DNA of 64,000 bases. It comes from a virus. How positions within the stretch are numbered: the first letter of the stretch is position 1; each line of letters starts with the position of its first letter. Under the pieces are notes generated by a model, which searched no databases, was not told the DNA's origin, and saw nothing but the letters and a program-made list of their open reading frames with translations. The DNA lies in the IMG/VR virus record IMGVR_UViG_3300042922_001182, positions 62,001 to 126,000 of that record, one strand, 5' to 3'. Shown one piece after another: positions 1,462-60,578 of this stretch. A program made the position numbers and the translations under genes.

Positions 1462-1471
1462 TACATATTAT
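1462..1471 (+). promoter_or_regulatory. Candidate phage promoter, TACATATTAT
   Basis: One of seven copies of an AT-rich element found in intergenic gaps of this GC-rich window. It lies 72 bases before the ATG at 1543. No -35 box is visible at the usual distance. Confidence 0.5.
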
Positions 1472-1480
1472 TCACTTGTC

Positions 1481-1504
1481 GGAAGGGGGCTCACGCCCTC
1501 TTCC
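1481..1504 (+). other. Leader hairpin downstream of candidate promoter
   Basis: GGAAGGGGGC-TCAC-GCCCTCTTCC forms a ten-pair stem with one G-T pair, starting ten bases after the promoter-like element. It may be a 5' stabilising stem-loop or a terminator of the upstream unit. Confidence 0.4.
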
Positions 1505-1542
1505 GGCGTCAGCTAAAGACTTACCGGAACACGAGGTCCCCG

Positions 1543-4900: not shown

Positions 4901-4930
4901 CTGACAGCCTGGCAAACAATCCGATATATT
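4901..4930 (+). promoter_or_regulatory. Candidate sigma70-type promoter
   Basis: CTGACA (4901-4906) and TATATT (4925-4930) are separated by 18 bases, close to the bacterial -35/-10 consensus (TTGACA/TATAAT). It lies just after a terminator and 27 bases before the ATG at 4957, so it would start a new unit read by host RNA polymerase. Confidence 0.5.
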
Positions 4931-7820: not shown

Positions 7821-8084
7821 GTGAACAGCAAGAGATTCCTCGAACTGGCCGAGGCCGTCGCGCCCGAGAGGGACCGGCAGGTCCTCCTCGAAAGCCGCAC
7901 CCCCTTCGGCACCGGGAGCAAGAGGGAGCTGATGTCCGCCATCGCGACGTTCTCCTCGCTCCCCCTGGAGCACCGGTCCTCCCGCCTCCGGGAGATCGAG
8001 GAGTCCGCCTCGGCCCTCGGCGTGGACCTGGAGAGGTACCACAGCCACCTGTCCATGGAGGTGAACATTGAACGCCAAGCGTAA
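7821..8084 (+). CDS. Hypothetical small protein
   Basis: An 87-residue helical protein starting at GTG 7821 with GGGAGG upstream. Its 3' end overlaps the next gene by 17 bases, so the two are translationally coupled. No family recognised. Confidence 0.7.
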   Translation: MNSKRFLELAEAVAPERDRQVLLESRTPFGTGSKRELMSAIATFSSLPLEHRSSRLREIEESASALGVDLERYHSHLSMEVNIERQA

Positions 8085-8799
8085 GAAGTACCAGGACCTC
8101 GTCGTCGAGACGATGAAGAGGCTGGACAAGAGCGGCGCCAACGCCAAGAAGTACGCGGAGATGTTCGCCAAGATGGACGACAAGCAGTTCGACTCCTACG
8201 TCAAGGCGTTCGCCAGGGACGAGGACGCGAACTTCTTCATCGAGGTCATCCCGTTCGAGACGGAGCCGACCCTGAAGATGATCGCGGCGACCGCCGAGTG
8301 GCTGGGCGTGCCCCTTGAGGAGTACGTCTTCTTCCGCCACGAGGACCCGGACGGCGACCCCGTGCGGACCTCCGTGAGGGTGCCCGTGGGCTACCTCAAC
8401 CTCAAGCGCCTCCAGCAGATCCTCAGCAAGAAGAACACCATGTCGCTCGACATCGACAAGCGCGACATGCTCGTCAACCAGGTGACCGGCGACGACAAGA
8501 TCGCCCGCATCTCTAACGTCGAGAACTACGCGCTGAGCGTCATGGGGGCCGACGAGGGCCTCAAGGAATTCCTCGGGCCCAGGTCGGACGACGGCCAGAT
8601 GAAGAGGCAGATGTACAGCGACATCTCCACCAAGGGGTACTCGCAGCTCCAGAACCTCTCCAGCAACCCGGAGGACTCGCAGGCCCTCTCCACCGTGGAC
8701 GTCTTCTTCGCGGGAGCGGGGCTCAAGACGGACCTCATCACCAAGGGCATGGCCTTCCCCAGGACCATGCGCAACATGAGCAAGAGAAAGGACGTGTAA
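8068..8799 (+). CDS. RNA polymerase beta subunit C-terminal module (stand-alone)
   Basis: A 243-residue protein from TTG 8068, overlapping the gene before it. The stretch VPVGYLNLKRLQQIL ... GDDKIARISNVENYALSVMG ... EFLGPRSDD ... MYSDI follows the last conserved block of bacterial RNAP beta (VGYMYMLKL ... RFGEMEVWALEAYGA ... KSDD ... MYKNIV). It also aligns along its length with the last ~190 residues of the 11653-13590 product, including the ends VDVFFAGAGLKTDL and MDVLLTSAGLRLTD. It is therefore a second copy of the beta C-terminal region, perhaps a subunit of a second phage RNA polymerase, which some jumbo phages have. The remaining beta blocks are absent from this gene. Confidence 0.6.
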   Translation: MNAKRKKYQDLVVETMKRLDKSGANAKKYAEMFAKMDDKQFDSYVKAFARDEDANFFIEVIPFETEPTLKMIAATAEWLGVPLEEYVFFRHEDPDGDPVRTSVRVPVGYLNLKRLQQILSKKNTMSLDIDKRDMLVNQVTGDDKIARISNVENYALSVMGADEGLKEFLGPRSDDGQMKRQMYSDISTKGYSQLQNLSSNPEDSQALSTVDVFFAGAGLKTDLITKGMAFPRTMRNMSKRKDV

Positions 8800-11563: not shown

Positions 11564-11573
11564 CACATATTAT
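11564..11573 (+). promoter_or_regulatory. Candidate phage promoter, CACATATTAT
   Basis: AT-rich element in the 168-base gap before the RNAP beta gene, 80 bases before its TTG start. The ATG at 11572 that it contains lacks a ribosome binding site and is not the start of the downstream gene. Confidence 0.55.
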
Positions 11574-11652: not shown

Positions 11653-13590
11653 TTGCACGACAGGATCGACATCGAGGCCTACCGCAACACCGACCGCTTC
11701 CTTGGGGAGGAGGTCCTCTTCCCCTTCGTGAGGAGCACCGACGGCTCGCGAGAGCTGATGGCCTCGTCCCAGGTCCACCAGGCGCTCGTCCTGACCAACG
11801 GTGAGTTCCCCCGCGTCTTCACCGGGTACGAGAACCAGGTGGGGAAGTACAGCTCCGCCTACCTCCGCGCCGAGCAGGAGCTCAAGATTCTCGAAGTCAT
11901 CGGGAAGAACCCGTACAACGCGCTCATCGTCTACGAGGACGAGGAGGGGACCATCGGCGTCATCTGGCGGAAGGAGTGCGAGAGCCTCTCCGAGCACTTC
12001 GGCTACCAGTACGACAACACCTACTTGGACGGGAAGTGGGAGGGCGACACGATCGCCAAGGGGGACGTCATCCGGCGGGGGACCGCCTACGACGAGGAGA
12101 TGAACTTCTCCTTCGGAACCAACCTCAGGGCGGTCTACATCCCCTGGGACGGAATGACCTTCGAGGACGCTATCGTCATCAGCGAGAGCACGTCCAAGAA
12201 GCTTGAGACCTCCTTGGTGGAGGTCGTCACGATCAACATGAACACCAACGACCTGGCCCTCAACCTCTACGGGGACGAGGATCCCAGCGGCTACAAGTCG
12301 TTCCCCGACATCGGCGAGGAGGTCAAGAACGGCATCCTCATGGCCCGTCGCCGCATCAACTACGAGTCCGCCCTTGTGGACCTGAGCACCAACCTCCTGA
12401 CCCAGGTCAACCCCAGTCGGGACACGGTGTTCTACTGCAACGGCACCGTGGTGGACATCGAGATCTTCAACAACGACGACGTCAACCGCCTGGAGAAGTA
12501 CGACTACAACGCCCAGATGCTCAAGTACCTGGCCGTGAACATGGAGTTCTACCGCGACGTGGACAGGGTCCTCGGCGCGTACATCAACGGCGGTCGCTCC
12601 TACACGGAGGACGCCGCCGCCGCCTACCGCCGCGCCCGGGACATCTGCAAGGATGGCGAGGAGCGCATCCGCTGGCGGCAGAACAAGAACGACTTCGAGT
12701 CCTACGTCATCCGGTTCACCCTGCTGCACAAGACCACGGCCAAGCCCGGGTCGAAGCTGGCGAACCGCTACGGCGGCAAGGGCGTCATCTCGCTCATCCT
12801 CCCCGACGACCAGATGCCGGTCAACGAGCACGGCGAGCGGGCCGAGATCATCCTCAGCCCTCTTGGCGTCACCAACCGCCTCAACCCGTCCCAGCTGATC
12901 GAGCAGGAGCTCAACTTCGTGGCGGACCACATCATGCGGGAGGCCAGGAAGGCGCCCGACACCATGACGGCGTGGGGTCTAATCCAGGACCTGCTCATCC
13001 AGGTCAGCCCCACCCAGGCGTCGGCCATGGCCAGCCACCTGTACAAGGAGGACATGGAGAGCTTCGTCAAGTCCATCCTGGACGACAAGCTCTACATCCA
13101 CCAGGCGCCGTTCTGGGGGAACCTGGACCTCGGCGGCCTGATCGAGCTGTACACCAAATACCCGTGGATCAAGCCCTACAAGATGAGCTGCTCCGAGAAG
13201 CCGCTGATCATGGGCGACATCTACTTCATGCTCCTGAAGCACGAGCCGATGACGAAGTTCTCGGTTCGCTCCACCAGCACCGTGAGCAACCGTGGCACCC
13301 CCTCCAAGAGCAGCCGCTACAAGGAGCACCAGCAGCCGTTCAGCCACACGCCGATCAAGATCGGCGAGATGGAGACCTTCAACATGTTCGCCACCGGCAA
13401 CTTCGAGGAGGTCCTCCGCATGCTCAACCTCTACTCCTCCAACCCGGGGGACAGAGAGCACCTCGCAAATGTTCTCCTCAAGACGAACATCTTCGACAGC
13501 AAGCAGGTAGATTCGCTCGGCGGCGAATCCAGCGTCAAGTCTATCATGGACGTACTGCTCACCAGCGCCGGTCTCCGGCTTACCGATTAG
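11653..13590 (+). CDS. RNA polymerase beta subunit, C-terminal half (phage type)
   Basis: A 645-residue homologue of the catalytic half of bacterial RpoB. GDVIRRGTAYDEEMNFSFGT followed by WDGMTFEDAIVISE (about residue 165) matches the RpoB block GxNMRVAFMPWNGYNFEDSI. GSKLANRYGGKGVIS (about 366) and ILSPLGVTNRLNPSQ match GDKxAGRHGNKGVIS and LNPLGVPSRMNxGQ, which hold lysines near the active centre. The C-terminus carries the GDIYFMLLKH ... IGEMETFNMFATG block. The N-terminal half is encoded separately at 21807-23225. Start TTG 11653 is chosen because AAAGGAAGG lies 7-15 bases upstream; the in-frame ATG at 11572 has none. Confidence 0.9.
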   Translation: MHDRIDIEAYRNTDRFLGEEVLFPFVRSTDGSRELMASSQVHQALVLTNGEFPRVFTGYENQVGKYSSAYLRAEQELKILEVIGKNPYNALIVYEDEEGTIGVIWRKECESLSEHFGYQYDNTYLDGKWEGDTIAKGDVIRRGTAYDEEMNFSFGTNLRAVYIPWDGMTFEDAIVISESTSKKLETSLVEVVTINMNTNDLALNLYGDEDPSGYKSFPDIGEEVKNGILMARRRINYESALVDLSTNLLTQVNPSRDTVFYCNGTVVDIEIFNNDDVNRLEKYDYNAQMLKYLAVNMEFYRDVDRVLGAYINGGRSYTEDAAAAYRRARDICKDGEERIRWRQNKNDFESYVIRFTLLHKTTAKPGSKLANRYGGKGVISLILPDDQMPVNEHGERAEIILSPLGVTNRLNPSQLIEQELNFVADHIMREARKAPDTMTAWGLIQDLLIQVSPTQASAMASHLYKEDMESFVKSILDDKLYIHQAPFWGNLDLGGLIELYTKYPWIKPYKMSCSEKPLIMGDIYFMLLKHEPMTKFSVRSTSTVSNRGTPSKSSRYKEHQQPFSHTPIKIGEMETFNMFATGNFEEVLRMLNLYSSNPGDREHLANVLLKTNIFDSKQVDSLGGESSVKSIMDVLLTSAGLRLTD

Positions 13591-16792: not shown

Positions 16793-16802
16793 CACATATT
16801 AT
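16793..16802 (+). promoter_or_regulatory. Candidate phage promoter, CACATATTAT
   Basis: Lies seven bases after the ligase stop codon and 63 bases before the ATG at 16865. Its last two bases overlap the start of a perfect hairpin. Confidence 0.5.
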
Positions 16803-16830
16803 CCGAAAGACGCGTGTGCGTCTTTCGGAT
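16801..16830 (+). terminator. Perfect hairpin between ligase and next gene
   Basis: ATCCGAAAGACGC-GTGT-GCGTCTTTCGGAT, 13 pairs, followed by AACTAACTTTTC. It may end the ligase transcript, or form the 5' end of the transcript begun by the overlapping promoter-like element. Confidence 0.5.
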
Positions 16831-16864
16831 AACTAACTTTTCTCTCTCGAAAGGAGATACGCGG

Positions 16865-17119
16865 ATGAAGAAGAACGACATCACCATGGCCTTCAAGCAT
16901 GTCAAGAGCGTGGTCGACCCCACCATCACCTACGAGGTCTCCCATTCCAAGAGCTCCCACGCCCCCGGGGCCAAGACCTTCATCAGCATCGACCCCGTCG
17001 AGCACATCGGCACCGACAAGGCAGCGCAGGCCCACATCGGCTCCGAGGTGGGGACCGGCGTCTACCTGGAGGACCTCCCGGCCGTGCTGGAGGCCGTCAA
17101 GTACGTCAGCGACGTCTAG
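16865..17119 (+). CDS. Hypothetical small protein
   Basis: An 84-residue protein; ATG at 16865 follows GAAAGGAGATAC. Contains KTFISIDPVEHIGTDKAA and ends EAVKYVSDV. No family recognised. First gene of the unit behind the CACATATTAT element. Confidence 0.65.
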   Translation: MKKNDITMAFKHVKSVVDPTITYEVSHSKSSHAPGAKTFISIDPVEHIGTDKAAQAHIGSEVGTGVYLEDLPAVLEAVKYVSDV

Positions 17120-20651: not shown

Positions 20652-20705
20652 GGGGGCCTGCGAACAAACCCCTAAGCAACGCAACTCGAACACAAGGAGA
20701 CCCGT

Positions 20706-21556: not shown

Positions 21557-21572
21557 CAACATCGAATTGTTG
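21557..21572. promoter_or_regulatory. Palindromic site upstream of HU gene
   Basis: CAACA-TCGAAT-TGTTG is a perfect five-base inverted repeat around a near-palindromic centre, 40 bases before the HU start. It could be an operator for autoregulation; no protein can be assigned. Confidence 0.3.
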
Positions 21573-21732
21573 TGTGGCGGGGGGTGGAAAACCCCCACCG
21601 CAGCGAGGGGCCGGGGATTAAGTCCTTACTACTGCGCCGTGATGGAAGCAAATATGATGGAGATGTCATTCGGCGCTCCGGCTTTTTGCCTGGCTCTGGG
21701 TCCCAAAGCGTTTGGGCCCGTTCAACTTCGGG

Positions 21733-21806: not shown

Positions 21807-23225
21807 ATGAAGAAATTCCTGAGCGAATTCTCTCCCGGTGAGCCCTTCAACGAGGAGTTCATCTTCGCCAAGGACAACGACGACGTGCTTGCCTACGTGG
21901 ACGACGTGGCGGCCACCCTCAACGTGATCGAGGGCGTCGAATACCTGGGGAGCGAGCTGATCGCCGACGAGACGGAGCTACGGCCCCGTCAGGAGGACGG
22001 CAAGCAGTGGATGAGCCTCGACGAGAGCCGCCTCGACATCATTAGGATGCAGTGGCGTATCACGAAGGGGGAGGAAACCGAGGTGATCACCCAGGAGGTG
22101 CTCTACCCCAAGCTCATCGACCACCACTACTACCTGATCAACGGGGTGAAGTGCTACCCCATCTACCAGATCGTGGACTCGGAGTGCTTCAAGACCTCCA
22201 GGTCGGTGACGCTCAAGACGATGGTCATGCCCATCATCCTGCGCCACGAGCCGGAGGAGTTCGAGGACATGGAGGGGAACGTCTACAACGCCCACTCCTA
22301 CAAGCTCCACCTGTTCCACTACAAGATCAACTACCTGCTCTACTACCTCTCCAAGAAGGGGTTCGAGCAGACCATCGAGTACATGGGCTGGGACGCCTAC
22401 CACCTGGGGCTGCTGGACGCCGAAGAGGCGAGCGGCATCGACCAGGAGGTCTACCGCCTGTTCAAGGTCTCCGGGACCAGCGTGCTGTACGCCTCCAAGG
22501 AGATGCTGCAGGACCGCAACGGGCTCGACATGGTGGCGTCGCTGCTGGACGTGCTGGAGGGCAAGACCCGCCCCGAGAAGGCGGCGGAGATCGAGTACTG
22601 GAAGCGCAAGCTCGGCTCGGTGTTCACCAAGAACACCGTCAACTACGTCGAGAAGGCCGAGAGCATCAGCATCTCCTTCGAGCGCATCATCGGAAGCCGC
22701 GAGCACAAGGTGCTCCGGATCGACGACGAGGACAAGAAGGACACCTACAGCGTCGTGCGCTGGATGGTGAGGAACTACGAGGAGCTGCACCGCCAGGACA
22801 ACATGGACCTGCGCCACAAGCGCATCCGCCTGCACGAGTACCAGCTCTACCCGCTCCTGACTAAGCTGTCGACCGGCCTGTACCGGGCCCTCAACACCAA
22901 GGACCCCAAGTTCAACGACCTGAAGCAGATCCTGCGCGTCGGCCCCGGCCACGTCATCAAGCGCCTGCTCAACAACGACCTGCTGCGGTACAGCAGCGCC
23001 GTCAACGGCATGGACCTCTTCAACAGCGCGTTGAAGTTCTCCTTCCGTGGCCCGCAATCGCTGGCCGACGGCGGTAAGACGATCTCGACCAAGTACCGGG
23101 GCATCCACCCCAGCTACATCGGTCGGATCGCGCTCAACACCAGCTCGAACGGCGACCCCGGCATGGGTGGCACGTTCTGCCCGTTCATCCAGCCCCACGG
23201 CCAGTACTTCACCAAGGAGAGATAA
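21807..23225 (+). CDS. RNA polymerase beta subunit, N-terminal half (phage type)
   Basis: A 472-residue protein matching the N-terminal half of bacterial RpoB. LIDHHYYLINGVKCYPIYQI corresponds to the 'GxFxINGxERV' strand region. DLRHKRIRLHEYQLYPLL corresponds to DDIDHLGNRRVRxxGELL. FSFRGPQSLADGG ... YRGIHPSYIGRIALNTSSNG corresponds to KRRLSALGPGG ... [20 protein letters not shown]. The catalytic second half is encoded at 11653-13590, in reversed genomic order. ATG at 21807 follows AAGAGG. The rifampicin-pocket region appears diverged (RGPQSLADGG instead of RRLSALGPGG); resistance is inference. Confidence 0.85.
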   Translation: MKKFLSEFSPGEPFNEEFIFAKDNDDVLAYVDDVAATLNVIEGVEYLGSELIADETELRPRQEDGKQWMSLDESRLDIIRMQWRITKGEETEVITQEVLYPKLIDHHYYLINGVKCYPIYQIVDSECFKTSRSVTLKTMVMPIILRHEPEEFEDMEGNVYNAHSYKLHLFHYKINYLLYYLSKKGFEQTIEYMGWDAYHLGLLDAEEASGIDQEVYRLFKVSGTSVLYASKEMLQDRNGLDMVASLLDVLEGKTRPEKAAEIEYWKRKLGSVFTKNTVNYVEKAESISISFERIIGSREHKVLRIDDEDKKDTYSVVRWMVRNYEELHRQDNMDLRHKRIRLHEYQLYPLLTKLSTGLYRALNTKDPKFNDLKQILRVGPGHVIKRLLNNDLLRYSSAVNGMDLFNSALKFSFRGPQSLADGGKTISTKYRGIHPSYIGRIALNTSSNGDPGMGGTFCPFIQPHGQYFTKER

Positions 23226-24997: not shown

Positions 24998-25819
24998 CTA
25001 CCTCCCACCGAGCAAGAAGCCGCGCAGCTCCTTCTGGATGTGCTCCTCGACGCGCACGTTGGCCGTGACGTTCTGGCCGTCCGTGATGGTGACGAAGCGG
25101 CAGTCCTCCGACAGCTTCGCGCCGAAGGTGGGGATCTCGAACTGGTCCGAGATGTCCCGGAGGTTCTGGCTGCTGCTCTTGATGAAGTCCATGACGGCGC
25201 TCTCCATCACGGGGATGATGAGGCCCTCGGTCATGATCTTCTTGTCGAAGGCGTCGTACAGGCTGGAGCCCTCGTTGAGGGTCTTCTGCATGTAGGCGTT
25301 GTCGTGCGAGGGGTGGATCACCCAGTCGTACGCCAGGATGTTCAAGGGGGACTTGATCTCCAGGTAGTCCTTCTTCTGCTCGGTGATGGGGCCGATGCCG
25401 CGCATCGAGAACGCCACCTTGGAGCCCTGGCGGATCAGGCCGCCGAAGTCCTTGCCGACGGCGGTCATGGCGGACTCCACGATGCCCTTGATGACGGTGC
25501 CCTCCATCCAGGCCCTCGTCACGATGTGCGAGATCCTGGTGTGGTCGATGGAGAGCTGGCGCTGCATGTCGGAGCTGATCGGGTGACCGGCCTCGCCGTA
25601 CCAGGTCTTCGTCTTGACGCGCTCGATGACGTAGGGGGCCTTCAGCGCCTCGTTCAGGGTCTTCGAACCGTACAAGCGCTTGTTGCGATTGGCACGGTCG
25701 GCGTCCTGGAGGAACGTCTCGATGGCGACGAACTCCTTCTGCTCGCTGATGATGGTGGGCTTGTACTCCTGCTCCGCCGCCTCGGAGATGATCAGGTAGC
25801 CCTTGTTGCTGGTATCCAT
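24998..25819 (-). CDS. Prohead core protease (T4 gp21-like serine protease)
   Basis: A 273-residue protein. LQDADRANRNKRLYG, then WYGEAGHP (His79), then RISHIVTRAWMEGTVIKG, and finally LIRQGSKVAFSMRGIG (Ser138 in SMRG) follow the order of the U9/S80 prohead proteases: a catalytic His in a G-x-x-x-HP context, then a Ser in S-x-RG. These enzymes sit inside the procapsid and cleave scaffold and capsid N-termini during maturation. The GSKV-x-FSxRGxG block is especially typical. ATG at 25819 has GGGAGAGG upstream on the minus strand and an AACA-N6-TAAG element 34-47 bases upstream. Confidence 0.85.
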   Translation of the reverse strand: MDTSNKGYLIISEAAEQEYKPTIISEQKEFVAIETFLQDADRANRNKRLYGSKTLNEALKAPYVIERVKTKTWYGEAGHPISSDMQRQLSIDHTRISHIVTRAWMEGTVIKGIVESAMTAVGKDFGGLIRQGSKVAFSMRGIGPITEQKKDYLEIKSPLNILAYDWVIHPSHDNAYMQKTLNEGSSLYDAFDKKIMTEGLIIPVMESAVMDFIKSSSQNLRDISDQFEIPTFGAKLSEDCRFVTITDGQNVTANVRVEEHIQKELRGFLLGGR

Positions 25820-25852: not shown

Positions 25853-25866
25853 CTTATACTATTGTT
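25853..25866 (-). promoter_or_regulatory. Candidate late promoter, AACA-N6-TAAG (minus strand)
   Basis: Read on the minus strand: AACA-ATAGTA-TAAG, 34 bases before the prohead protease start. The same pattern is found before the minus-strand genes at 31733 and 60483. Confidence 0.5.
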
Positions 25867-25899
25867 GGAGGATGAAAGCGAATCTACCGTAAACCCGTA

Positions 25900-25909
25900 C
25901 ACACATTAT
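25900..25909 (+). promoter_or_regulatory. Candidate phage promoter, CACACATTAT
   Basis: Variant of the CACATATTAT element in the divergent gap, about 34 bases from the oppositely directed minus-strand element and 44 bases before TTG 25953. Confidence 0.45.
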
Positions 25910-25952: not shown

Positions 25953-26258
25953 TTGCTGAAAGCTGTTGAACCCATGATCACCAAGATGATCGACATCGCG
26001 ATGGCCAACCTCGACGTCAACAACGGGTTGAGCGTCTTCAACCAGGCCTATAACCTGGTGCAGGACCTCATCCGGTTCCTCGACAGCGACCCCAGGTGGG
26101 CCGCCACCATCATCATGACGATTCGCTCCTTGACGTACAAGGGCTACGACATGAACAAGAGCCAGGCCTTCGAGGACCTCAAGACGGAGGCCTACCTCAT
26201 CCAGCAGGTACTGCACAACACCATGAGCGCCGGTCTGGCGCTGTCCCCCACCCGCTAG
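25953..26258 (+). CDS. Hypothetical helical protein
   Basis: A 101-residue protein. TTG at 25953 is chosen because AAGGAAGGAAGGAA (25935-25948) ends five bases upstream; an in-frame ATG at 25914 has no ribosome binding site and would lie only four bases after the promoter-like element. Nearly all-helical (AVEPMITKMIDIAMANLDVN). No family recognised. Confidence 0.6.
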   Translation: MLKAVEPMITKMIDIAMANLDVNNGLSVFNQAYNLVQDLIRFLDSDPRWAATIIMTIRSLTYKGYDMNKSQAFEDLKTEAYLIQQVLHNTMSAGLALSPTR

Positions 26259-30257: not shown

Positions 30258-30321
30258 AAGGGCCCGCCAACACCATGATACGCCGGGGCTGGTGATGCCA
30301 ATCCACCCGCCCCGGTTCCAA

Positions 30322-31771: not shown

Positions 31772-31785
31772 CTTATGATAGTGTT
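31772..31785 (-). promoter_or_regulatory. Candidate late promoter, AACA-N6-TAAG (minus strand)
   Basis: Read on the minus strand: AACA-CTATCA-TAAG, 39 bases before ATG 31733. Confidence 0.5.
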
Positions 31786-31797
31786 AACGGTTTTGTC

Positions 31798-31807
31798 CAC
31801 ATATCAT
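31798..31807 (+). promoter_or_regulatory. Candidate phage promoter, CACATATCAT
   Basis: AT-rich element 40 bases before GTG 31847 and only 12 bases from the opposite-strand AACA-N6-TAAG element. Confidence 0.5.
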
Positions 31808-31846: not shown

Positions 31847-32410
31847 GTGCATCAACAGATCCATGACATCAGCGGCCTTGAGACCGCCATCAGACTTCAG
31901 CGCGGGACGGAGTACCAACTCGCACCCGGCCAGGAGTTCCAGGGGATGGGCGCAGAGCTCAGGGTCTCCCACATCCCCCTCGGGAGGGCGTGCGGCGCCT
32001 CCTTCGAGGCGACCCCGAGGCAGTTGATCGAGACGAGCTTCCGCTGCCCGGGTTGCGACCCCATGAACGAGGAGTACGGCACCGACATCATCCGTGGGGT
32101 GCTCGACGAGGCGGGGGTGGGTTACACCGAGGGGGCCTTCTTCGAGGGCCTGGTGGGAGAGGACGGGGGAGACCTCGGGTTCGACTTCGAGGTGGAGATC
32201 CCCGGCAGGGAGGACCCCCTCTACATCGCCTTCGCGCCCTCCTACTGCTTCATCAACCACGACCGCATGACCCAGGACTACCAGACACTCAGGGGGTTCG
32301 CCTTCGAGTACGAGATGGACTTCCTGGAGTTCACCTACCAGCAGGAGCCCGCAGGGATCCGCAAGGAGCTCCAGGAGGAGCTAGCCAAGAGATTGACGCC
32401 CGCTCAGTAG
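31847..32410 (+). CDS. Possible degenerate PD-(D/E)XK nuclease-like protein
   Basis: A 187-residue protein; GTG at 31847 follows AAAGGAGAAAG. FRCPGCDPMNEEYGTDIIRG followed by ...GVGYTEGAFFEGL, then LGFDFEVEI and PLYIAFAPSYCF, resembles the family of small phage/homing-type endonucleases. In those a zinc knuckle precedes an E...hFDFh...hIEhDGxQHF core. The FDF aspartate is present, but the place of the catalytic glutamate (IEYDG) reads IAFAP, so activity is doubtful. Weak call. Confidence 0.4.
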   Translation: MHQQIHDISGLETAIRLQRGTEYQLAPGQEFQGMGAELRVSHIPLGRACGASFEATPRQLIETSFRCPGCDPMNEEYGTDIIRGVLDEAGVGYTEGAFFEGLVGEDGGDLGFDFEVEIPGREDPLYIAFAPSYCFINHDRMTQDYQTLRGFAFEYEMDFLEFTYQQEPAGIRKELQEELAKRLTPAQ

Positions 32411-35904: not shown

Positions 35905-35914
35905 CACATATTAT
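35905..35914 (+). promoter_or_regulatory. Candidate phage promoter, CACATATTAT
   Basis: Immediately follows a terminator and precedes ATG 35960 by 45 bases, exactly the layout expected of the start of a new transcription unit. Confidence 0.6.
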
Positions 35915-35959: not shown

Positions 35960-36205
35960 ATGGTGATCATCAACGGAAACAAGAGCGTCTACGACAAGGA
36001 CGCCCTCCTGGCGCTCTACTTCGCGATCGCCCGTGGCGACTACATCCTCGTGGATACCACCAAGATGCTGTACGCCAACGGCCAAGGGTTCTCCACCGTC
36101 GACGAAGGGGTTTCTACGATCCTGCTCGATGCCAAGGCGACCGCCCGCCGTGTCGCCAACATCGTCGAGGAGCGGGCCAAGGATCTCATCAAGGAGAAGG
36201 ACTAG
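35960..36205 (+). CDS. Hypothetical small protein
   Basis: An 81-residue protein; ATG at 35960 follows GGAAAGAGG. First gene of the long plus-strand run. Central hydrophobic helix (DALLALYFAIARGDYILV) and a charged C-terminal helix. No family recognised. Confidence 0.65.
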   Translation: MVIINGNKSVYDKDALLALYFAIARGDYILVDTTKMLYANGQGFSTVDEGVSTILLDAKATARRVANIVEERAKDLIKEKD

Positions 36206-42231: not shown

Positions 42232-42255
42232 GCGGCTCGTCCGCATATCCGGTAA

Positions 42256-42296
42256 GGGGTGGGGGGAACACGACCGTATGTGAGCCCCCCTACCCC
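42256..42296 (+). other. Leader hairpin
   Basis: GGGGTGGGGGG pairs with CCCCCCTACCCC (one mismatch) around an 18-base loop, just after a weak promoter-like GCATATCC at 42243. The next gene starts 26 bases further on. Confidence 0.4.
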
Positions 42297-42321: not shown

Positions 42322-42846
42322 ATGCGCTACACCGATCAGCCCAAGACCGTCGTCACCGACATCAACGCGGGCAAGGCCTACATCATCTCCGGTCGCACCT
42401 TCTTCGTGCTCGCCTCCAACTTCCGCAAGGAGTCCGAGGGCGAGGACGGCCCCATCTACAGCGTCCTCGCCGACCTGAAGGGCGCGGTTACCGTCGTCTC
42501 CGCAGCCGACCTCTACGCCCTGGAGCGGGCCCCCGAGCAGGACAAGAACGAGGGCGGCTTCATCGTGGTCCACGGCCCGGACTCCGGCTGGCGCTACAAG
42601 CACTTCAAGGGCGGTCAGTACCGCGTCGTCAGCTCCAAGGTGGAGGCCCTGGTGGACGGCGAGGTCGTCACCTACGTCGCCTACGAGGCCCACATCAACC
42701 CCTCCCAGCACACCCGCTGGCTGCGCCCCTACGAGTCCTTCTTCGGCGACGTCCGCATCGACAGGAAGACCCTCCAGAGCGTCCCGGACGACGCGCCCCA
42801 GGATGGCACCGTCATCGTCCACCGCTTCGACCTGGTGAGCCGCTGA
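42322..42846 (+). CDS. DUF1653-like domain protein
   Basis: A 174-residue protein; ATG at 42322 follows AGAAGGGAC. Residues ~88-140 (WRYKHFKGGQYRVVSSKVEA ... VVTYVAYEA ... TRWLRPYESFFGDV) match the DUF1653 pattern (YxHyKGxxYxV ... vvYxaly ... WvRPlemF). Function of that domain is unknown. The next gene overlaps by one base (TGATG). Confidence 0.7.
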   Translation: MRYTDQPKTVVTDINAGKAYIISGRTFFVLASNFRKESEGEDGPIYSVLADLKGAVTVVSAADLYALERAPEQDKNEGGFIVVHGPDSGWRYKHFKGGQYRVVSSKVEALVDGEVVTYVAYEAHINPSQHTRWLRPYESFFGDVRIDRKTLQSVPDDAPQDGTVIVHRFDLVSR

Positions 42847-54440: not shown

Positions 54441-54467
54441 GCCTCCCTCTTACCACGGTAGAACAAC

Positions 54468-54477
54468 CACATATCCT
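54468..54477 (+). promoter_or_regulatory. Candidate phage promoter, CACATATCCT
   Basis: Variant of the shared AT-rich element, 41 bases before the portal ATG and directly after a hairpin terminator. Confidence 0.5.
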
Positions 54478-54517: not shown

Positions 54518-56887
54518 ATGGCAGAGAAAGACGAGGGCAAGGGTCTCCTTGCCCAGCTCAGGAGCATCGGGGCGTACACCACTGGCCTGATGTTCGGCAG
54601 CAGCGAGGAGCGACGCGCCGAGGACAGGGCCAAGAGGGCCGACGTCAAGGACCTGGTGGCCCGGGTCAGCTCCAGGTACCAGAGCACCACCGGCCCGGAC
54701 GTGGTGGAGTTCCTCGCCCAGGCCGAGCTCCAGGCCGACGACGACAAGGGGAAGGGCGGCAAGAAGAAGAGCGGCAAGAAGCTCCTTGAGATCAACAGCA
54801 TCGTCGAGGGGGCCGACCAGAAGATCCTGAGCAACATGATGTTCATGGAGATGGACCGCATCACCGGCTACGACACGTACGCCATGATCCACAAGTACAT
54901 CCCGCAGCTCTCGGACGCCATCAAGAACTACCGGGACAGCATCCTCTCCCCGGACGACTTCACCAAGGACACCTTCACCGTCCACTACGAGGCGTCGGAG
55001 GTCGAGGCCGTGAAGCTCGCCGTCGAGAGGCTGGACCAGATCACCGAGCGCTACGGCCTGGAGGAGAAGAGCAAGAAGATCATCGACGACACCCTGATCC
55101 TCGGCGACCAGTTCGTGGCGACCCTCTCCCTGGATCGGGAGCTGCAGAGGCTGCTGCTCGAAGGCGCTGACCCCAAGAACCTGATGATCCTCTCCAACGA
55201 GCAGATCGGCAGGGACCTCGGCGGCTTCCTGACGGAGTCCGAGTCCGCCCTGACGGAGGAGGAGATCACCGACCTCGGCATCCTGATCGAGGAGGAGGGC
55301 AAGGAGGACCCAGCTCTGAACGAGCTGAACCGTAGCCTCATGCTCATGATCAACGAGAACCTCAGCTTCGGCGACTCGAAGACCATCCTCCGGGAGAAGG
55401 CCGAGACCGAGATGATCATGAACAACGCCACCGGCGGTAGCGCCCTGGAGGCGGCCAAGGAGCGCGAGGCGGCCGAGAAGCAGAAGGCCATCGACGGCTG
55501 GAAGATGGTGAACGGCTCCGTCGTCAAGGTGCTGGACCCCCGGCGGGTCGTCAAGCTCCAGGTGGACGACGTCTGCTACGGCTACTACTACGTGGAGAAG
55601 GCCAGCAACACCGACTTCGGCAAGAAGCCCGCCGGTCGGCACGGGTCCGACGCCTTCACCAGCGCCTTCACCGGGGCCGGGAACGACGAGGCCGCCAAGA
55701 AGACCAAGTCCGACATGGTGGCCGACATCTTCATCAAGCGCATCGGCAAGAGGGTCAACAACGAGCTGTTGGCCAAGAACCCCGAGTTCAAGACGATCAT
55801 GTACAACCTCCTGAAGCAGGGCGCCCTGATGAAGGAGCAGATGAAGATCACCTACCTCCGTCCGGACGAGGTCGAGCACTTCATGATCAACGAGGAGGAC
55901 GGCTACGGCGTCTCCATCTACCGGGACATCCTCTTCACGGCCAAGCTGTACCTGGCGGTGCTGACCACCACGCTCATGAACAAGCTGGTGCGCGGCCCCG
56001 ACAAGCGCGTCTTCTACGTGGAGGTCGGCCTGGACAACGACACCGAGGGCGTCATCCAGCAGTTCATCCGCGACGTCAAGAGCCGCGACATCAAGATGAA
56101 CGACCTGAAGGACATCAACACCATCCTCAACAACGTCGGCATCCACAACGACTACTTCATCCCCATGATCAACAACGAGCGGCCCGTGGACATCGAGACC
56201 ATGTCCGGCTCGGAGGCGACCCTGGACAACGAGTTCCTTGAGTACCTGCGCAAGACCATGATCTCCGGGATCGGCGTCCCCTCCGCGTTCCTCAACTACT
56301 CGGAGGACGTGGAGTTCGCCCGCTCGCTGGCGATGCAGAACGGCCGATTCGTCCGCTCGATCGTCGTCCTCCAGAAGTGCTTCGGCAAGGGCTTCACCCG
56401 GCTCTACCGCACGCTCTACCGCAACGAGTACCCCAGCGAGGCCGAGAAGCGCGAAAGCAAGCCCACTGCGACCCCCAAGACCAAGGGGGAGGGCGAGGGC
56501 AAGCCCGCCCCCTTGCTGCTGGGAGAGGCCGCGCCTAAGCCCAAGGGCAAGGCCGAGGACCGCGCCCAGACCTACGAGATCGAGGCGCGGCTCATCGAGG
56601 TCCGCTTCCCCTCCCCGGCCTCGCTCAACACCACCAACATGACCGAGCAGGTCAACAACAGCCAGACCGTCGTCGACTTCATCGTGGCTACCCTCGCGGG
56701 GGACGACACGCCGGAGGATGCCAAGCGGGAGCTCAAGCTCCAGGTGACCAAGGACCTGGTGACCACGGTCGACTGGGCCAGGTACGAGAACATGGCGAAG
56801 GACGCCAGGATCAAGGCCAAGAGGGACGCCCTCCTCAGCAACGAGGAGGACCCGGCGTCCAAGGGCGGAGGCCTGGCCGACGTCTAA
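54518..56887 (+). CDS. Portal protein
   Basis: A 789-residue protein; ATG at 54518 follows TAGGAGG. Order and motifs fit T4 gp20-like portals: an early helical segment ending AIKNYRDSILSPDDF, a long middle, then ITYLRPDEVEHFMIN ... SIYRDILFTAKLYLAVL ... LVRGPDKRVFYVEVG ... IETMSGSEATLDNEFLEYLR ... GVPSAFLNYSED. The protein forms the ring at the capsid vertex through which terminase pumps DNA. It is longer than T4 gp20 (about 520 residues), with extra N-terminal and central low-complexity regions (GKGGKKKSGKK; GEGKPAPLLLG). It is the only structural gene on the plus strand here. Confidence 0.85.
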   Translation: MAEKDEGKGLLAQLRSIGAYTTGLMFGSSEERRAEDRAKRADVKDLVARVSSRYQSTTGPDVVEFLAQAELQADDDKGKGGKKKSGKKLLEINSIVEGADQKILSNMMFMEMDRITGYDTYAMIHKYIPQLSDAIKNYRDSILSPDDFTKDTFTVHYEASEVEAVKLAVERLDQITERYGLEEKSKKIIDDTLILGDQFVATLSLDRELQRLLLEGADPKNLMILSNEQIGRDLGGFLTESESALTEEEITDLGILIEEEGKEDPALNELNRSLMLMINENLSFGDSKTILREKAETEMIMNNATGGSALEAAKEREAAEKQKAIDGWKMVNGSVVKVLDPRRVVKLQVDDVCYGYYYVEKASNTDFGKKPAGRHGSDAFTSAFTGAGNDEAAKKTKSDMVADIFIKRIGKRVNNELLAKNPEFKTIMYNLLKQGALMKEQMKITYLRPDEVEHFMINEEDGYGVSIYRDILFTAKLYLAVLTTTLMNKLVRGPDKRVFYVEVGLDNDTEGVIQQFIRDVKSRDIKMNDLKDINTILNNVGIHNDYFIPMINNERPVDIETMSGSEATLDNEFLEYLRKTMISGIGVPSAFLNYSEDVEFARSLAMQNGRFVRSIVVLQKCFGKGFTRLYRTLYRNEYPSEAEKRESKPTATPKTKGEGEGKPAPLLLGEAAPKPKGKAEDRAQTYEIEARLIEVRFPSPASLNTTNMTEQVNNSQTVVDFIVATLAGDDTPEDAKRELKLQVTKDLVTTVDWARYENMAKDARIKAKRDALLSNEEDPASKGGGLADV

Positions 56888-57771: not shown

Positions 57772-60483
57772 TTACTTGACGATGATGTCGTTGACGACAC
57801 GCTCGATCACGTTGTTGAAGACCAGCTCGGTCTTAACACGCGTCACCTTGCGCTTCTTCTCGTAGTCGGAAGCGTACACCGTGCCATTGGCAACCTTGCA
57901 GGCGCGGTTGTCGACCCACTGGGAGAGCTCGCCGTTCACATCCGCCTGGAAGGCGTTGTAGGTCGAGGCGTCGCTGAACTCGAACTGGTAGTTCTCGCCC
58001 ATGCGCTCGATACGGCGGAGGATCCTCAGGAGGACGCGGACGTTGTTCTGGTCCGACAGGGCGGAGACCACCTTCTGCATGGTCAGCTGGGAGCCGATCT
58101 TGGTGGTGGTGTTGTCCTGCTCGGCGTAGTTGATCTGGAGCTTGTACAGCTCCTCCTTCCACGTCTCGGTCGGGTTGAACGACATGCGCTTGAAGCCGTC
58201 GAGGACGCCGCGACGCAGGCCAGCCAGCGGGAACTGGATGCCGTTGGCGGTGTCGTTGGCGGGGATCATGCGCGACAGGAAGTAGGTCATGGTGACCTTG
58301 ATGTCGCCGCCGGTGAACTCCGCGTCCTCGACCACGAAGTCCTGGGTGTAGAGCGAGCCGAAGAAGCTCGACGCCTGCGCCTGGTTCTTGCGGAAGTCGA
58401 CGGCCTTCGCCGCGTTGGGCGTAAAGCCGGTGTCCAGGATCGCCATGTGGTCGCCACGGATGTTCCGGGCCAGCTCCAGCATGGCGGTCTTGACGGGCGT
58501 GGGGTAGTTGGCGTCGATCGTCAGGTCGATCGGGACCAGCTTCTTGTTGGTGACGTTCTGGTCGAGCGTGCCGCTGTACGCGGACACCAGCAGCGAGGTC
58601 GCCGTGGTGGTGCGCAGAGTGGGGTTCGACTCGTCCAGGTCGCCGTCGGTACCGCTACCGAGAGGCGCGAGGTTGTCGATGTTGTAGATGTCGACGCCGT
58701 AGGTGTTGCCGAGCTTGACCGTGGCCTCCGAGCGCGCCTCGGTGAGGACGCCAGCGGCGGCGGTCAGGACGGCGACCTTGTCGGCATCGGACGCCTTCGC
58801 GACGCCGACGGCGGCGGTCAGGACGGTGTCCAGGTGACCGTAGGCCGTCTCCATCGAGGTGATGACGTCGTTGGCAGCATCGACCTTGGCCTCGGTGAGG
58901 TTGGTGTTGATGGCGGCCTGGGCGGCGGTCAGGGCAGCAGCGGCGGCGGAGGTCGCCGTGTTGAGCTTGTTCGCAGCGGACGAGGTCGTCGCGATGGCGT
59001 ACGCAGCCAGGGCCGCATCGGCCGCCGTGATGGCGGTGTCCAGGGTGGTCTCGGTCGCGTCCGCCTCGGTCGAGATAGCCAGCACGGTGGTGCGGACTTC
59101 CTTGGCCAGGGCGACCGCGTCCTTGGCGGCCTGGTGACGGGTCACCGGGTCGGCGCCGACGTTGGCGGCGGTGATGGCAGCCTGGGACGCGGTGACCCGC
59201 GAGGTCAGGCCCAGGGTGGCCATCTCCACGACGTTGGCGGTGCGCGAGGCGGTGGTGTAGCCCTCGATCGCCACCAGAGCCGCGAGGACGGCGACGGTGG
59301 CACCCTGGACGGCGCGGCCCAGGTTGTAGGCCTGAAGCTGCTCGGTGCGCTTGGCGCCCGAAGCGTAGGCCAGGAGGGCCTCGGCAGCGAGCTTCTCGGC
59401 AGCTTCGCCGACGGCGGCGACCATGTCGGCCTTCAGCTTGAGGAAGGTGCCAGCGGTGGTGGGATCGCCCTTCGACGTGGTCAGGGCGGTCTTCAGCGCG
59501 GTGGCCTCGGTGTTGTAGGTACCGGCCTCGACCTTGTCCATCGCGTCTTCGATCGTCGCGATGGCGGTCAGGGCAGCGGCGTGGTCGGACACGCGCACGG
59601 CCTCGTCGGCGTTCACGATCGCGGCGACGGTGGAGCTGGAGACGTCGGCGAGCTTGGTGCCAGCGTGGATGGGATCCTCGCCGTCGACGTCGCGCTCGGT
59701 GACGGTCAGCAGGTCCAGCAGGGCCGGGTCGACGTCCGGGTTGATCGCAGCGCCGAGAGCGTTGTAGGCGTCCTCGTTGTAGAGGAACTCCATCTGCTCG
59801 GAGAAGTTCTCGAACACGTAGTCGATCGTCATCTTCTCGTTCGACTTCGACTTGGCGTCGGGCGAGAACGAGACGAGGAAGGGGCCCTCGACCGGGGTGA
59901 CGGTGCCGGTCTTGGAGACGCGGACAACGCTGGCCTCGTAGACGCGGAAGTCGTTGGTGTTGTCCAGGTCCGTGGTCAGACGGAGCTGCACACCCAGGTC
60001 GTTGTAGCCCTTGCCGCGACCCTTCGGGCGGAACGCGCCCAGCAGGTGGTGCTTGTAGCCGTCCACGGTGTCCGAGTGGACGCGCTTCAGCTCGGCTTCG
60101 AGCGCCTCGTGCGAGGTGTGGTTCACCGGGCTGTACATCAGCACCGGGCGGACCTGCAGCTTGCCGCTCTCCATCTTCGTCTGGACGTCCAGGATGACGT
60201 GAGCGAAACCGGCGTTCTCGGGCATGACGCGGAGGCCGAAGACCTCGCCGCCGGACTGCAGGAAGTTGCGAATGTTGTACATGGCCTGTCCGTGGCGGCG
60301 CATGTTGGGCTTGCCGTAGTGAAACTCGGCCTCGCTGGGGGTGGTAAGCCTGACCAGCGTGTTGTCGGGACCGATGTCCGACGTGAACGCGGTAAGCATC
60401 ACGGTCGACCCCGCCGCAGTCACGAAGATCACCGAGTCGTCGATGATCCGCGAGCTGATACTCGGGTGAAGATACTCTTCCAT
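57772..60483 (-). CDS. Tail sheath protein with large Ala/Thr-rich insertion
   Basis: A 903-residue minus-strand protein. The N-terminus (EEYLHPSISSRIIDDSVIFV ... STVMLTAFTSDIGPDN) and C-terminus (GGDIKVTMTYFLSRMIPAND ... VLDGFKRMSFN ... FNNVIERVVNDIIVK) follow contractile-sheath design. Between about residues 255 and 590 lies a low-complexity, strongly helical Ala/Thr/Asp-rich region without Cys or Trp, likely an extra domain exposed on the tail surface. T4 sheath is about 660 residues, so the insertion explains the extra length. ATG at 60483 (GGAGG upstream) is preferred to the GTG at 60498. Confidence 0.8.
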   Translation of the reverse strand: MEEYLHPSISSRIIDDSVIFVTAAGSTVMLTAFTSDIGPDNTLVRLTTPSEAEFHYGKPNMRRHGQAMYNIRNFLQSGGEVFGLRVMPENAGFAHVILDVQTKMESGKLQVRPVLMYSPVNHTSHEALEAELKRVHSDTVDGYKHHLLGAFRPKGRGKGYNDLGVQLRLTTDLDNTNDFRVYEASVVRVSKTGTVTPVEGPFLVSFSPDAKSKSNEKMTIDYVFENFSEQMEFLYNEDAYNALGAAINPDVDPALLDLLTVTERDVDGEDPIHAGTKLADVSSSTVAAIVNADEAVRVSDHAAALTAIATIEDAMDKVEAGTYNTEATALKTALTTSKGDPTTAGTFLKLKADMVAAVGEAAEKLAAEALLAYASGAKRTEQLQAYNLGRAVQGATVAVLAALVAIEGYTTASRTANVVEMATLGLTSRVTASQAAITAANVGADPVTRHQAAKDAVALAKEVRTTVLAISTEADATETTLDTAITAADAALAAYAIATTSSAANKLNTATSAAAAALTAAQAAINTNLTEAKVDAANDVITSMETAYGHLDTVLTAAVGVAKASDADKVAVLTAAAGVLTEARSEATVKLGNTYGVDIYNIDNLAPLGSGTDGDLDESNPTLRTTTATSLLVSAYSGTLDQNVTNKKLVPIDLTIDANYPTPVKTAMLELARNIRGDHMAILDTGFTPNAAKAVDFRKNQAQASSFFGSLYTQDFVVEDAEFTGGDIKVTMTYFLSRMIPANDTANGIQFPLAGLRRGVLDGFKRMSFNPTETWKEELYKLQINYAEQDNTTTKIGSQLTMQKVVSALSDQNNVRVLLRILRRIERMGENYQFEFSDASTYNAFQADVNGELSQWVDNRACKVANGTVYASDYEKKRKVTRVKTELVFNNVIERVVNDIIVK

Positions 60484-60563: not shown

Positions 60564-60578
60564 CTTTAATTGAATGTT
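60564..60578 (-). promoter_or_regulatory. Candidate late promoter, AACA-N6-TAAA (minus strand)
   Basis: Read on the minus strand: AACATTCAATTAAAG, 81 bases before the sheath ATG, in a 123-base gap that otherwise holds no gene. Confidence 0.5.

Follow-up and report, generated by a model that had tools for sequence, protein, structure and literature searches.

A recurrent AT-rich element of a GC-rich jumbo phage as a probable AR9-type early promoter

What reads the AT-rich ten-mer CACATATTAT that stands at position 11564, ahead of a gene for a piece of an RNA polymerase (RNAP), and that recurs in near-identical form before other gene units of a genome with 63.5% GC? The window considered here is the whole 64,000-bp stretch that was analysed, bases 62001-126000 of a 238,984-bp virus record (positions in the full record are marked "record" below). 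Judged by its genes, the source is a ~239-kb jumbo phage and a distant relative of Bacillus phage AR9. A comparison of 24 kb of the window with 50,697 phage records returned no close DNA relative, and protein searches found kin among Bacillus phages AR9, PBS1, Goe21 and BpSp, Listeria phage LPJP1, Staphylococcus S6-like phages and Yersinia phage phiR1-37. AR9 has counterparts of approximately 70 genes, in most cases at 25-50% identity. Our own gene calls, made with a codon-usage model across the whole record, comprise 286 genes (93.8% coding, 6.2% non-coding). By analogy with the better-known members of this group, we consider it very probable that the element forms the core, centred on -10, of an early promoter of the AR9/phiR1-37 kind, read by the virion RNAP (vRNAP) in an early-to-late cascade.

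Recurrence and placement of the element

The sequence, positions, spacing, gene context and conservation of the element were all obtained here. The pattern YACATATYMT has six matches in the window, all on the plus strand, where shuffling leads one to expect 0.07. The whole record holds 16 forward and two reverse matches, and a reversed-pattern control gave none in the same record. Allowing up to one mismatch to CACATATTAT gives 26 sites across the genome (the strict set), every one of them non-coding, and allowing up to two gives 37, of which 36 are non-coding. The first-pass annotation, made from the letters of the window, listed seven such sequences; all are present, and its statements that they recur beyond chance, only in gaps, and lie 40-80 bases before the next gene hold up, with element sites no commoner inside genes in the genome-wide scan. 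Its count of seven plus-strand units needs amending, since the copy CAAATATGAT at 21649 had been missed and the one at 54468 is better assigned to the late promoters described below.

A wider set of 32 sites includes two on the minus strand (record 236256 and 183406); the second of these shares bases with a late-promoter match and, like record 116468 (window 54468), is ambiguous. A weight matrix grown at a loose threshold drew in matches on the reverse strand, ATATTAT being close to a palindrome, and strand-specific sites were used instead. The view that several elements directly follow terminators is true of some, such as 35905; at 1462 and 16793 the hairpin instead starts at or just after the element, and the hairpin at 16799-16832 overlaps the core. 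The same arrangement, in which the element abuts the preceding stop codon and a terminator-like hairpin starts at or near the predicted +1, was observed at window 1462-1510 and 16793-16832 and at record 58112, 210019 and 221941, so that the early transcript would open with the terminator of the previous unit.

Table 1. Predicted promoter elements and RNAP-related genes located in the window (starts are likewise predicted)
Feature	Position	Strand	Sequence	Remarks
Early core	1462..1471	+	TACATATTAT	+1 G 1478; first gene 1543-2379
Late match	4915..4926	+	AACA-N6-TA	
AR9 gp77 orthologue	8068..8799	+		gp77 annotated as virion RNAP subunit
Early core	11564..11573	+	CACATATTAT	+1 G 11580; ahead of nvRNAP beta C-terminal gene
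nvRNAP beta, C-terminal part	11653..13590	+		AR9 gp88 orthologue, 42%
Early core	16793..16802	+	CACATATTAT	+1 G 16809; first gene 16865-17119
Late match	20663..20674	+	AACA-N6-TA	
Late match	21558..21569	+	AACA-N6-TG	upstream of nvRNAP beta N unit
Early core	21649..21658	+	CAAATATGAT	+1 G 21665; before nvRNAP beta N-terminal gene
nvRNAP beta, N-terminal part	21807..23225	+		AR9 gp104 orthologue, 40%
Late match	25855..25866	-	AACA-N6-TA	before gene 24998-25819 (-), AR9 head maturation protease orthologue
-35-like box	25879..25886	+	CGAATCTA	belongs to 25900 promoter; -37 to -30 of predicted +1
Early core with -35-like box	25900..25909	+	CACACATTAT	+1 G 25916; first gene 25974-26258
Late match	30269..30280	+	AACA-N6-TA	
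Late match	31774..31785	-	AACA-N6-TA	
Early core	31798..31807	+	CACATATCAT	+1 G 31814; first gene 31847-32410
Early core	35905..35914	+	CACATATTAT	+1 G 35921; first gene 35960-36205; terminator hairpin precedes
Late match	42267..42278	+	AACACGACCGTA (AACA-CGACCG-TA)	before gene 42322
Late match	54462..54473	+	AACAACCACATA (AACA-ACCACA-TA)	perfect; before structural gene 54518-56887 (AR9 gp127 orthologue)
Late match	60567..60578	-	AACA-N6-TA	before tail sheath orthologue 57772-60483

Predicted start and conservation in relatives

The early promoters of AR9 were mapped by dRNA-seq to AAATATATATTAT-(6N)-G(+1) and assigned to the vRNAP (PMC5312081). In the present phage a G lies exactly seven bases downstream of the ten-mer at 24 of the 26 strict sites (p ~2e-10), in whose selection the G position had no role, and 29 of the 32 sites in the wider set have a G at the N6 spacing. 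A weight matrix built from the annotated AR9 early promoters alone finds the listed sites again, 18 of its 20 best matches here being intergenic and most of them identical with those sites. The same geometry extends to 68 distinct IMG/VR contigs that encode relatives of the beta subunit of the non-virion RNAP (nvRNAP): ATATTAT-N6-G occurs 231 times in the sense and 61 times in the antisense orientation, as opposed to 595 and 600 times for the same word without the G (Fisher p ~2e-20 for the contrast). These relatives were collected by alignment queries, a query of IMG/VR with nvRNAP beta as a single protein having returned no matches; relatives from the phiKZ group are only ~23% identical to the nvRNAP beta of this phage. 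Orthologue pairs between AR9 and the present phage also agree on lying behind an early promoter, with p = 0.003 at a 5-kb limit, 0.07 at 2.5 kb and 0.007 at 8 kb by what is a crude measure.

On its sequence, the element is best read as a further instance of the AR9-type promoter, a known kind. It shares with the AR9 early promoters the ATATTAT core, the N6 spacing to a +1 G, the placement before early units including the nvRNAP genes, the number of sites per genome (~32-41) and an upstream box in a subset, whereas the AT-rich extension of AR9 has been lost and YACATATTAT remains in a genome of 63.5% GC. The work on phiR1-37 describes an A-dU-rich promoter consensus with 56 promoters confirmed by RNA-seq (PMC4848604); its TATATTAT core with TG near +1 matches the present element, and its AT-rich flanks, host and genome composition differ. 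The reported phiKZ early promoters, with a ~10-nt AT-rich motif near -10 and a start 6 nt downstream, are alike by description. The earlier proposal of a phage-specific promoter used by a phage RNAP therefore stands, given the core, N6 spacing and +1 G mapped in AR9 and the sense bias in the 68 contigs; the start base, timing and reader polymerase of the present promoters are predicted from AR9.

Two RNA polymerases, two probable promoter classes and rival readings

The phage encodes orthologues of both AR9 enzymes, the nvRNAP (AR9 gp88, gp104, gp153, gp269 and gp225) and the vRNAP (gp77, gp144, gp188 and gp263). Every nvRNAP orthologue lies in a unit headed by the element, with elements at record 1456 (gp269), 73564 (gp88), 83649 (gp104) and 144531 (gp153), and the element at record 188523 heads the sigma-like nvRNAP gene and its neighbour. 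Three of the four vRNAP genes (record 131741-, 152496- and 236664+) have instead matches to AACA-N6-TA (record 133287-, 156682- and 236296+); no nearby promoter match was identified for the fourth, the gp77 orthologue in the window. AACA-(6N)-TA/G is the late promoter of AR9, read by its nvRNAP (PMC5312081, PMC9209446). In our record AACA-N6-TA occurs at 38 non-coding and 14 coding positions, and each of the other gaps has 2-7 non-coding occurrences, so that gap 6 alone shows an intergenic enrichment of the motif; 45 matches to AACA-N6-TA/G in the whole record lie at most 250 bases upstream of a gene on the same strand, and many structural units are headed by such matches. The shared motif and spacing, found before the vRNAP genes as well, together with the early element indicate that both AR9 promoter classes are conserved here.

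The late motif also resolves two sites at the edge of the original list. At 54468, CACATATCCT overlaps a perfect late match, has no +1 G and is followed by a structural gene, and is for these reasons better explained as a late promoter. Likewise, the weaker form at 42243, put forward as the head of the unit at 42322, gives way to the adjoining late match, which accounts for that gene better. The division is not complete: a few structural orthologues (e.g., g207121 and g157056) lie within 5 kb behind an early element, and no clear element was found for the units of AR9 early-gene orthologues SbcD, DnaB and a Dda-like helicase at record 30-39 kb. The gene order uvsX-[early promoter]-nvRNAP beta is common to the present phage, phiR1-37, PALS_2 and Goe21.

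These data fit the following course of infection. The multisubunit vRNAP packaged in the virion would enter the cell along with the DNA, recognize YACATATTAT and begin at the G seven bases downstream, transcribing the early units and with them the genes of the nvRNAP. The nvRNAP would then read the late genes, including those of the vRNAP, from AACA-N6-TA/G. The suggestion, drawn from the RNAP beta pieces encoded in the window, that a phage polymerase is the natural reader is supported, with the refinement that both pieces belong to the non-virion enzyme, the predicted reader being the vRNAP.

A host promoter of the sigma70 family, read by host RNAP, would account for the likeness of TATTAT, at -12 to -7 of the predicted start, to the bacterial -10 hexamer and for a box near -35 at eight sites. 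We nevertheless regard this reading as very unlikely. A scan for TTGACA-like -35 boxes at a 16-18-nt spacer from TATAAT across window 11-30 kb gave one site against 1.9 expected from shuffles; that site is on the minus strand and is none of the elements, in keeping with the original argument against sigma70. In addition, Bacillus and Yersinia phages, and many uncultivated relatives too, have the core, N6 spacing and +1 G; the phage carries genes for two sets of RNAP pieces; and AR9 can complete infection without transcription by host RNAP, its early transcription being insensitive to chloramphenicol (PMC5312081). Use of the element as a middle promoter by the nvRNAP would agree with the nvRNAP beta pieces encoded beside elements in the window and with the weak AT-rich motif at -24 of phiKZ middle promoters (PMC7598289), but the element heads the units of the nvRNAP genes themselves and the AR9 nvRNAP consensus exists separately here, mostly before other units, which leaves this alternative very doubtful indeed. 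Finally, hairpins directly after the element in several units could point to an operator or RNA-level signal with no promoter function; the fixed distance to the G, the strand-specific enrichment in relatives and the match to a consensus of mapped start sites make that barely conceivable.

Valine V206 of the sigma-like nvRNAP subunit of AR9, which has been tied to recognition of uracil in the template strand (PMC9209446), is kept in the orthologue at record 189471-190922; in the beta-N alignment with AR9, R363 is kept and K375 aligns with D. Neither a thymidylate synthase nor a dCMP deaminase family was found in the record, and AR9 UGI has no match in this phage. An orthologue of the AR9 5'(3')-deoxyribonucleotidase, an enzyme kind expected in uracil-DNA phages, was observed at record 137991-138689 on the minus strand (31% identity). 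The DNA of this phage may or may not contain uracil.

An upstream box at a subset of the probable early promoters

The absence of a -35 box, which had been noted for the element, applies to most sites. At eight of the 32 sites genome-wide, the promoter at 25900 among them, CGAAWCTA or a close variant lies exactly 21 bases before the ten-mer, at -37 to -30 of the predicted start. Eleven CGAAWCT words occur in the genome, seven of them intergenic, all at the box spacing, and four coding. The word derived from relatives reached six occurrences at one position, as compared with three at most for random sets of 32 non-coding sites in 2000 trials. AR9 has CGTATYA at a fixed -22 in eight of its 32 annotated early promoters, and when the gap between CGTAT and ATATTAT is scanned, AR9 (9/11), Goe21 and BpSp peak at 20 and phiR1-37 peaks at 19; PALS_2 and LPJP1 show no peak. 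The box of the present phage thus differs from that of AR9 in word (CGAAWCTA vs CGTATYA) and gap (19 nt between CGAAT and ATATTAT vs 20 nt), and its gap equals that of phiR1-37, where CGTAT precedes ATATTAT at some promoters. Among the other IMG/VR relatives, CGTAT/CGAAT boxes are not enriched beyond phiR1-37 itself, and relatives without the box show raised A at -18/-17 before ATATTAT. We found no mention of the box in the main text of the AR9 paper (PMC5312081) and no description of one in the passages of the phiR1-37 work that were covered; as far as these sources go, the accessory box is apparently undescribed.

Boxes precede smaller first genes (p = 0.009). Genes behind two-box promoters (record 3827, 87974, 127824, 140711, 181818, 196851, 198028 and 236030) are mostly small (61-253 aa), with neither AR9 relatives nor assigned function; no function could be convincingly assigned to them from Pfam or PHROGs, and we consider them candidates for host takeover. 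Compared by eye, the presence of a box had no obvious relation to nearby late promoters. In AR9, gp119 (L020:43982-44695, -), annotated "RNA polymerase", sits behind a two-box early promoter and by eye contains a sigma region 4-like stretch followed by an alpha-CTD-like stretch; neither gp119 nor the AR9 "sigma factor" gp148 has a match in the present phage.

Box and core together resemble a bacterial -35/-10 promoter in geometry, a likeness that implies no class membership. The part of the literature covered names no specificity factor for a jumbo-phage vRNAP. We lean slightly towards the view that at some early genes AR9-like vRNAPs read a bipartite promoter resembling a bacterial one, in which a -35-like box (CGTATYA in AR9, CGTAT(C/T)T in phiR1-37, CGAAWCTA in the present phage), held at a fixed distance from the -10-like core, may be contacted by a sigma4-like part of the injected enzyme and may mark small host-takeover genes. 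The box, present in about a quarter of the early promoters, probably raises recognition or strength, a role proposed here without precedent.

By keeping mainly YACATATTAT-N6-G, a GC-rich phage narrows the promoter to the bases that are likely essential, because background AT-richness no longer masks them. The box at fixed spacing, also present in AR9, Goe21, BpSp and phiR1-37, would offer a concrete second contact for the vRNAP. Lastly, both promoter classes being kept from AR9 (~28% GC) to a phage of 63.5% GC, they may allow the early and late genes of uncultivated relatives to be predicted.
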